A DNA stretch of 64,000 nt, taken from positions 1 through 64,000 of the forward strand of contig JAPHSS010000010.1 in NCBI GenBank assembly GCA_026195255.1, read 5' to 3'. Under the pieces are notes generated by a model. That model saw nothing but the letters and a program-made list of their open reading frames with translations. It had not been told where the DNA came from and ran no database searches. Position 1 is the first letter of the stretch. Every line of letters starts with the position of its first letter. The translations under genes and the position numbers were made by a program. The DNA is from Gammaproteobacteria bacterium. GTDB taxonomy: Bacteria; Pseudomonadota; Gammaproteobacteria; SZUA-229. Of this stretch, positions 14,009 to 14,842 are shown in pieces.

Positions 14009-14372
14009 GGGGGTGACATGGCTTCGACGTGGGTTGTGAACCCACTGGTGCATGTCGAGGGGCAGAGTACCTCGTAAATCTAACTGCAAACTTTTAGTTG
14101 CCAACGACGACAACTACGCAATCGCTGCCTAAACACCAGTAGATTGCCTTCCGGCCAATGCTTGCTTGTAGGCGTTGGATTTCGGGAGTCATCCTATACA
14201 AGATCGTGATCTGATCGGCCTGAGGCCAGAACACTAAAACTTAAACGGGCTCGTTGATCAAAATCCTGTTCCGCCGGAGTTTGTGATATTAAATTAAAAG
14301 GCGAAAACTAAACATGTAGACCCAGTGGCAGATCGCTTGCGGACGGGGGTTCAATTCCCCCCACCTCCACCA
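14009..14372 (+). ncRNA. ssrA: Transfer-messenger RNA (tmRNA)
   Basis: The 364-base gene begins GGGGGTGACATGGCTTCGAC and ends with the T-arm GGGGGTTCAATTCCCCC followed by ACCTCCACCA. The 5' GGGGGUG pairs with 3' CACCUCC (one G-U) to make the 7-bp acceptor stem. The tag reading frame at 14100-14132 encodes ANDDNYAIAA followed by TAA, close to the E. coli tag ANDENYALAA. The conserved TTAGTT-like element stands before the resume codon. The near-3' segment AACTAAACATGTAGA is the family hallmark. It works with SmpB to release stalled ribosomes and mark the nascent chain for ClpXP. Followed directly by an intrinsic terminator. Confidence 0.98.
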
Positions 14373-14376
14373 ATAT

Positions 14377-14411
14377 AAAAAAGGCCCCCTGTTTTTCAGG
14401 GGGCCTTTTTT
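14377..14411 (+). terminator. Intrinsic terminator of ssrA
   Basis: The stem ggccccct/agggggcc (14383-14390 and 14398-14405) with loop gtttttc is flanked by an A-run before it and a T-run after it. It starts five bases after the CCA end of the tmRNA. The A/T flanks make it able to act in both directions. Confidence 0.92.
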
Positions 14412-14488
14412 ATGCACAGGACGTGCGGTATCTTAAAAATGCAGGAGCAATTTTTAATGATATTGGTAGAGATGGGCGGATGCGAACC
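14404..14488. repeat. Direct repeat after ssrA, copy 1
   Basis: An 85-base segment is repeated at 14648-14732, exactly 244 bp downstream. The last 68 bases (from 14421) are identical and the first 17 differ at a few positions. It overlaps the T-run of the ssrA terminator. Inside is an imperfect hairpin (ttaaaaatgc...gcaatttttaa). Read on the minus strand its inner end resembles a tRNA 3' end: a T-arm-like TTCGCAT flanked by G- and C-rich strands, then CATCTCTACCA. Position 58 of the T-loop is C instead of the near-invariant A, and no matching 5' half was found, so it is not an intact tRNA. Confidence 0.8.
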
Positions 14489-14585
14489 CCCAATGGGTTC
14501 AAAAAATCGTCTGGAACGATTTTTAACATAGTCATCGCTTTTCATGACTATGGCCCCGAAGGGGTGAAACACAGGGATGTGTTTC
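14484..14585. repeat. Row of five consecutive hairpins between the direct repeats
   Basis: Adjacent perfect inverted repeats occupy nearly all of this stretch. They are: gaaccc/gggttc (14484-14500); aaaaatcgt/acgattttt (14502-14524, 9 bp, 5-base loop); catagtcat/atgactatg (14527-14552, 9 bp, 8-base loop); cccc/gggg (14554-14564); and gaaacaca/tgtgtttc (14566-14585, 8 bp, 4-base loop). This is far denser than chance and implies selection for RNA or cruciform structure, or insertion of a structured element. No protein is plausible here. Confidence 0.7.
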
Positions 14586-14647
14586 ATAATTCCCCTCTAC
14601 AAATTACCAAAATAGCCATCACCCAAATCACCCTGTATTTCAAAAGC

Positions 14648-14732
14648 CCTCTTTTATGCACCGAACGTGCGGTATCTTAAAAATGCAGGAGCAATTTTTA
14701 ATGATATTGGTAGAGATGGGCGGATGCGAACC
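14648..14732. repeat. Direct repeat after ssrA, copy 2
   Basis: This is the second copy of the 85-base repeat described at 14404-14488. In this copy the minus-strand T-arm-like stem is better (GGTGG/CCGCC with one G-U). No acceptor partner for CATCTCT could be found in the following 100 bases on that strand. Between the copies, 14586-14647 holds nothing else recognisable. Confidence 0.8.
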
Positions 14733-14842
14733 ACCATTTCTTACTGTGGGTTTCCAGATAGATAGACAGTGAGATTAAATTTGCTACCAGCAAGAATTGA
14801 GCAGAGTCACTCATCACTCTGCCAATCTGATCGGAATTACCA

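Follow-up and report, generated by a model that had tools for sequence, protein, structure and literature searches.

The hairpin element that lies directly behind ssrA is, judging by its sequence, almost certainly a tmRNA-linked member of the family of tRNA-linked repeats (TLRs), which includes RtT and RrA, RrB and RrF. In E. coli, TLRs were already known in 1978. To our knowledge they have no agreed function, and those that bind CsrA had been regarded as limited to the rRNA operons of Enterobacteriales; the literature that we searched held no report of TLRs outside Enterobacteriales. The family is a known one, but the element described here is unusual in its location, its loop type and its distribution. 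New are the linkage to ssrA, the spread beyond Enterobacterales and the GGA loops on tRNA- and tmRNA-linked members. A GGA-bearing TLR behind ssrA and many tRNAs offers a function that is directly testable.

In the window, which is the whole 64,000-nucleotide stretch of DNA analysed, ssrA occupies positions 14009..14372 of the plus strand (ARAGORN; tag ANDDNYAIAA; Rfam: RF00023, 231 bits). A repeat search of the window found behind it a direct repeat of 106 nt (14387-14492 and 14631-14736) with 97 identical positions (92%) and the copies 244 nt apart. The first-pass annotation had described an 85-bp direct repeat 3' of ssrA that brackets a row of hairpins; the arrangement and the spacing were borne out and the repeat proved longer. 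Its count of 68 identical bases between the 85-nt copies was wrong, as a recount gave 82 of 85. The overlap of the first copy with the ssrA terminator, also noted there, was confirmed. This intrinsic terminator, T1 (14375..14413, plus strand), has a 17-bp stem and is terminator-like on the minus strand too. On the plus strand it is followed by the hairpins Ha (14414..14426, GCAC-AGGAC-GTGC) and Hb (14433..14457, TTAAAAATGC-AGGA-GCAATTTTTAA), which together make up a genus-restricted unit that follows terminators. At 14463..14488 there is a diverged inverted copy of the tmRNA 3' end, with T arm, acceptor and CCA on the minus strand, which on the plus strand is the 5' side of a predicted closing stem. 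The minus-strand T-arm and CATCTCTACCA without a 5' half, which had also been noticed, are real and correspond to this diverged reverse complement of the tmRNA 3' end.

The TLR core has the same orientation as ssrA and starts 129 nt behind it, and its upstream gene is a tmRNA rather than a tRNA or rRNA gene. As delimited by covariance model R2, the core covers 14479..14592 of the plus strand and comprises the hairpins H0-H4 and the start of the 3' copy. H0 (14484..14500, GAACCC-CCAAT-GGGTTC) is derived from a T arm. H1 (14502..14524) has a covarying stem and the loop CTGGA, H2 (14527..14552) has a variable stem and no GGA, H3 is found at 14554..14564 (CCCC-GAA-GGGG) and H4 at 14565..14586 (TGAAACACA-GGGA-TGTGTTTCA, in the context ACAGGGAUGU). 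These are the five adjacent inverted repeats of the first-pass annotation, three of which are perfect 9-bp stems. They are followed on the plus strand by a worn direct copy of the tmRNA 3' end (14588..14611, AATTCCCCTCTAC...), which is the 3' side of the predicted closing stem, by a degenerate second terminator T2 (14630..14657), by a second Ha (14658..14670) whose loop CGAAC has lost the GGA and by a second Hb (14677..14701) with the loop AGGA. A second inverted copy of the tmRNA 3' end lies on the minus strand at 14707..14732. The 85-bp repeat first reported is composed of the terminator end, Ha, Hb and the inverted tmRNA end, once on each side of the hairpin core.

Ha-Hb pairs, with ANGGA loops and stems that change with compensation, were found directly behind intrinsic terminators in four of five genomes of the genus, and several of these terminators belong to protein genes on the same strand. 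Besides the two copies in the window (14414-14457 and 14658-14701), they occur at the loci L004, L006, L008, L012, L263, L266, L268, L269 and L279. Ha-Hb is a second hairpin family of this post-terminator, CsrA-like kind.

The density of perfect stems had been claimed to be higher than in the other gaps, and 14373-14760 indeed contains the densest 250-nt stretch of the window. It holds six perfect stems of at least 7 bp, compared with a mean of 0.16 and a maximum of 2 in 300 mononucleotide shuffles. The RNA fold of the entire repeat-hairpin stretch has a z of -5.6 against dinucleotide shuffles, and each of the two strands folds much better than such shuffles. The segment 14462-14616 (z -5.4 against dinucleotide shuffles) is predicted to fold as a single closed multi-branched structure, with H0-H4 enclosed by the pairing of the inverted with the direct tmRNA-end copy. 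Both copies share a change of the tmRNA's CTCCAC to CTCTAC and therefore fit each other better than they fit the tmRNA; being one event, this matching change is only suggestive. A hammerhead-like reading of GATGAGAACC..GGTTCGAAA was dropped, as these are the T-arm copy and its partner.

The assignment to the TLR family is based on two covariance models, both built without the window's genus and without Enterobacterales. R1 was built from 30 elements of other genera (alignment A1, MAFFT) and matches the held-out window at 14502-14587 with 74.0 bits (E 2.5e-13) and the likewise held-out RrB of the E. coli rrnB operon, whose position between 5S and murB was confirmed, with 75.4 bits (E 1.3e-13). 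As R1 scored only 12 bits on E. coli RtT, we built the longer model R2 from 11 mostly tRNA-linked elements with their flanks included. R2 gives 80.0 bits on the window (E 1.8e-19) and, in E. coli, where selected regions rather than the whole chromosome were searched, 72.0 bits on RrB, 39-44 bits on the four RtT copies at tyrT-tyrV and no match in two control regions.

At gathering score, the Rfam models find only the tmRNA in the window. The RtT model (Rfam: RF00391), with a gathering score of 45 bits, has no match there at E values up to 5, and in relatives it gives sub-threshold scores of 28.9-31.6 bits at the same position. AaHKsRNA22 (Rfam: RF02902) scores 29.6 bits on the window and 28.8-31.5 bits on ssrA-linked relatives, all under its gathering score of 39.8. 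It seems that a single superfamily takes in both RtT and AaHKsRNA22, and a joint model would serve it better; the element links these two Rfam families.

The stems covary. Among 33 distinct sequences from a genome search, all from other genera and outside the training set, 95.3% of the pair cells are standard pairs and 190 cells have double-sided changes, compared with 57 +/- 5 in shuffles and 19-36 in slid structures, numbers that lean towards the structure since the alignment was fitted to the model. The H2 stem was not used in choosing the training set, and all six of its pairs have double changes in the MAFFT alignment A1. Compensatory changes are also visible between the window and the congener G004 at ssrA, in H1 (TCGT/ACGA to ACGT/ACGT) and in H2 (CATAG/CTATG to CAGAG/CTCTG). 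The ssrA-linked units of the sister species G140 and G141 have almost wholly different H4 stems, with the pairing and the GGA loop kept. The alternative suggestion of the first-pass annotation, a small structured RNA, is supported by these results: the stems covary from family to family, and the loops are conserved.

Of 77 copies, 74 have a GGA in the H1 loop and 66 in the H4 loop, compared with one copy for H2 (Fisher below 1e-29) and seven for H3; as the copies were found with models and queries that contain GGA, the absolute rates are inflated and the contrast to H2 and H3 is in part biased likewise. The GGA lies on the tRNA-sense strand. Most of the tRNA- or tmRNA-linked copies analysed here bear GGA loops, and the E. 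coli RtT copies have no GGA in H1 or H4. That loops are retained while stems are replaced argues, on comparative grounds, for selection acting on the loops. With GGA presented in hairpin loops and retained under stem change, the element fits the functional class of CsrA-binding RNAs in this respect.

The elements are linked to the tRNA and tmRNA genes upstream of them and carry copies of their 3' ends. A tRNA or tmRNA gene ends within 600 nt upstream on the same strand in 57 of 164 copies and on the opposite strand in one of 164. Same-strand genes downstream (27 of 164 copies) come from tRNA clusters. Roughly two in three of the copies lack a tRNA in the 600 nt upstream, a point against the trailer explanation. 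The far-end sequence matches the 3' end of its own tRNA or tmRNA over swapped tRNAs (p 1.9e-10), and in relatives this far-end copy is usually 19 identical nucleotides from the T-loop to the CCA of the upstream gene. The inverted near copy is likewise one of the element's own gene (p 1.5e-9), and near and far copies pair (p 0.0014). In relatives, among them the ssrA-linked loci L198, L213 and L223, mostly 19-20 nt are identical to the upstream gene's 3' end. Where TLRs repeat 18-19 bp of that end exactly, the direct copy in the window is made up of AATTCCCC and a diverged remainder, and its own tmRNA is still a better match than every other tRNA end compared. Because this copy and T2 are worn, the window's element may be partly decayed, though H1-H4 are intact. 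The earlier hunch about tmRNA 3'-end copies was right: an inverted and a worn direct copy are both present.

Among tmRNA loci, the model search found ssrA-linked copies at eight of 30 in the family and at two of 29 in the class; coordinates point to further ones in the genomes G072 and G078, and L218 has a degenerate one. Two tandem units stand behind ssrA in G140 and one in G141, the latter being 87% like the second and 77% like the first unit of G140. This pattern is consistent with whole units being gained or lost, in either direction, via the copied 3' ends.

The genome of the window contains 20 TLR copies, many of them away from tRNAs. One genome per genus was sampled in the class, and 41 of these 114 carry a copy with an E value of at most 1e-4. 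In the phylum, 30 of 200 genomes have a copy at 1e-5, among them some of other classes with lower scores. Named hosts include Rheinheimera, Kangiella, Alcanivorax, Psychromonas, Paraglaciecola, Serratia and Brenneria. Some copies stand in other contexts. One of the 20 copies of the window's genome, L168 (1478-1576, G000:C25), stands beside tRNA-Ser and behind csrA, about 170 nt from the CsrA-domain match; its TLR core lies within a copy of the 5' end (D arm) of tRNA-Ser, and similar tRNA-Ser 5'-end junctions were seen at L038 and L133. L150, L151 and L152 are near-identical TLR cores away from tRNAs, within another dispersed repeat with the arms ACTTTTCT...AGAAAAGT.

As a whole explanation we favour, on balance, a read-through trailer RNA that would bind CsrA; that the element's function is to titrate CsrA is plausible and falls a little short of being probable. 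RNA polymerase passing T1 would produce the trailer RNA, in which the near and far copies of the tmRNA 3' end would pair to form a closed multi-branched RNA. This RNA would display GGA in H1 and H4 as well as in the neighbouring Ha and Hb loops, CsrA dimers and perhaps Hfq would bind it, and a small share of CsrA would be titrated, an amount that scales with tmRNA transcription. Where other species have an exact 19-nt copy of the tRNA or tmRNA 3' end, the same processing probably also provides the trailer with a defined, tRNA-like 3' terminus.

In E. coli, RrB is produced by T1 read-through and binds CsrA in vitro in a GGA-dependent manner, and it also binds Hfq (PMC8144298). A deletion of RrA, RrB and RrF has no clear phenotype in E. 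coli, and the TLRs of the tRNA type are predicted not to bind CsrA there (PMC8144298). The genome of the window encodes csrA, as seen from a CsrA-domain match, and the Rfam models of CsrB and RsmZ have no match in the window or in the rest of this genome. The apparent strength of T1 is a point against read-through. Genomes with a TLR are not significantly richer in csrA than those without (35 of 41 versus 58 of 73, p 0.62; 32 of 34 versus 51 of 62 among the high-quality genomes, p 0.13), so the presence or absence of csrA was dropped as support for the sponge idea. One genome with a completeness rating of 100%, G037, lacks a csrA match yet has a copy that bears GGA.

A wider reading, possible though rather doubtful in its full extent, is that TLRs are old and widespread 3'-trailer CsrA sponges on the stable RNA genes of Gammaproteobacteria. 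Those at ssrA would couple the output of the ribosome-rescue RNA to the Csr system, the GGA-less tRNA-linked TLRs of E. coli would be decayed survivors, and units would spread and be lost via copied tRNA and tmRNA 3' ends.

The roughly 20 copies in one genome, many away from tRNAs, could instead point to a selfish dispersed repeat, a MITE- or REP-like hairpin element that inserts in or next to tRNA-like sequences and terminators and keeps its structure and loops for spreading via DNA hairpins or an RNA intermediate, with no benefit for the host. The tandem arrays in other genera, the insertion-like junctions in T-loop or D-arm copies and the varying number of ssrA-linked units between sister species would all fit such an element. 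However, the strand bias towards tRNA and tmRNA genes is strict (57 versus 1), and stems change wholesale while the GGA loops stay, unlike a transposon end that is recognised by its sequence. Moreover, no linked transposase was met in an unsystematic look, and we regard a purely selfish repeat as rather unlikely.

Considerably less probable is a device for tmRNA transcription or processing in which CsrA plays no part, either as a second line after T1 (fail-safe termination, or a read-through or RNase barrier) or as a decoy of the 3' end. The position behind the terminator, the tmRNA 3' end copies and the T1-TLR-T2 layout, with T2 intact, in G004 and at L213 agree with it, but it leaves unexplained why GGA occurs in two specific loops and not in H2 or H3, and most members of the family have ssrA without the element.

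The main idea of the first-pass annotation, a scar or degenerate att-like duplication left by an integrative element at ssrA, is very improbable for the window, where tmRNA 3'-end copies stand on both sides of the segment but the 244 bp between the repeat copies hold no integrase and do not qualify as an att site. The genus does use ssrA in this way. In G004 a 13.3-kb island with a tyrosine integrase (Pfam: PF00589 and PF13356; L257, G004:C14:182300-197500) sits between ssrA and a displaced ssrA 3' end that is followed by T1, the TLR and an intact T2. The window and the genome G002 have the element without the island, so ssrA is an integration site in the genus, yet the element is independent of the island. 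Furthermore, the unit is laid out in the way that is standard for a known repeat family and has a covarying core of its own, the same layout is found at tRNAs of many types and at the E. coli 5S, and the matches of the held-out models speak against the att reading, which was rejected; the TLR identity explains a repeat that can be mistaken for an att scar. Integrase-like ORFs begin right behind ssrA at L216 and L219, in two more genomes of the family. A functionless chance tandem duplication would account for the worn far copy, T2 and second Ha of the window, but it is refuted for the core by the model scores, the covariation and the loop conservation, and its probability is negligible.

Among known systems, the closest to the TLR behind ssrA are RrA, RrB and RrF, TLRs between T1 and T2 of rrnA, rrnB and rrnD that have been reported only in Enterobacteriales (PMC8144298). 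Common to both are the hairpin series H1-GAAC-H2-GGCCC..GGG-H4 with GGA in H1 and H4, the position behind T1, a far-side copy taken from the 3' end of the upstream gene and the matches to R1 and R2. The window unit differs in lying behind ssrA instead of 5S, in the additional T-arm-derived H0, inverted tmRNA-end copy and Ha-Hb units, and in its worn far copy and T2. RtT (E. coli tyrT-tyrV, RF00391) shares the overall frame, with the inverted tRNA-end copy, GAGAACC..GGTTCGA, the hairpins H1-H4 and a GAATAATCC..CCA that is identical to the tRNA end, whereas its H1 and H4 are short in E. coli and have no GGA loops. The hairpins of AaHKsRNA22 (RF02902) of Aggregatibacter align in the same order, but the family consensus has no GGA loop in H4. 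With the CsrB and RsmZ sponges, whose models do not match it, the window element shares multiple hairpins with GGA in the loop; in contrast to these free-standing genes, it would be the trailer of a stable RNA gene.
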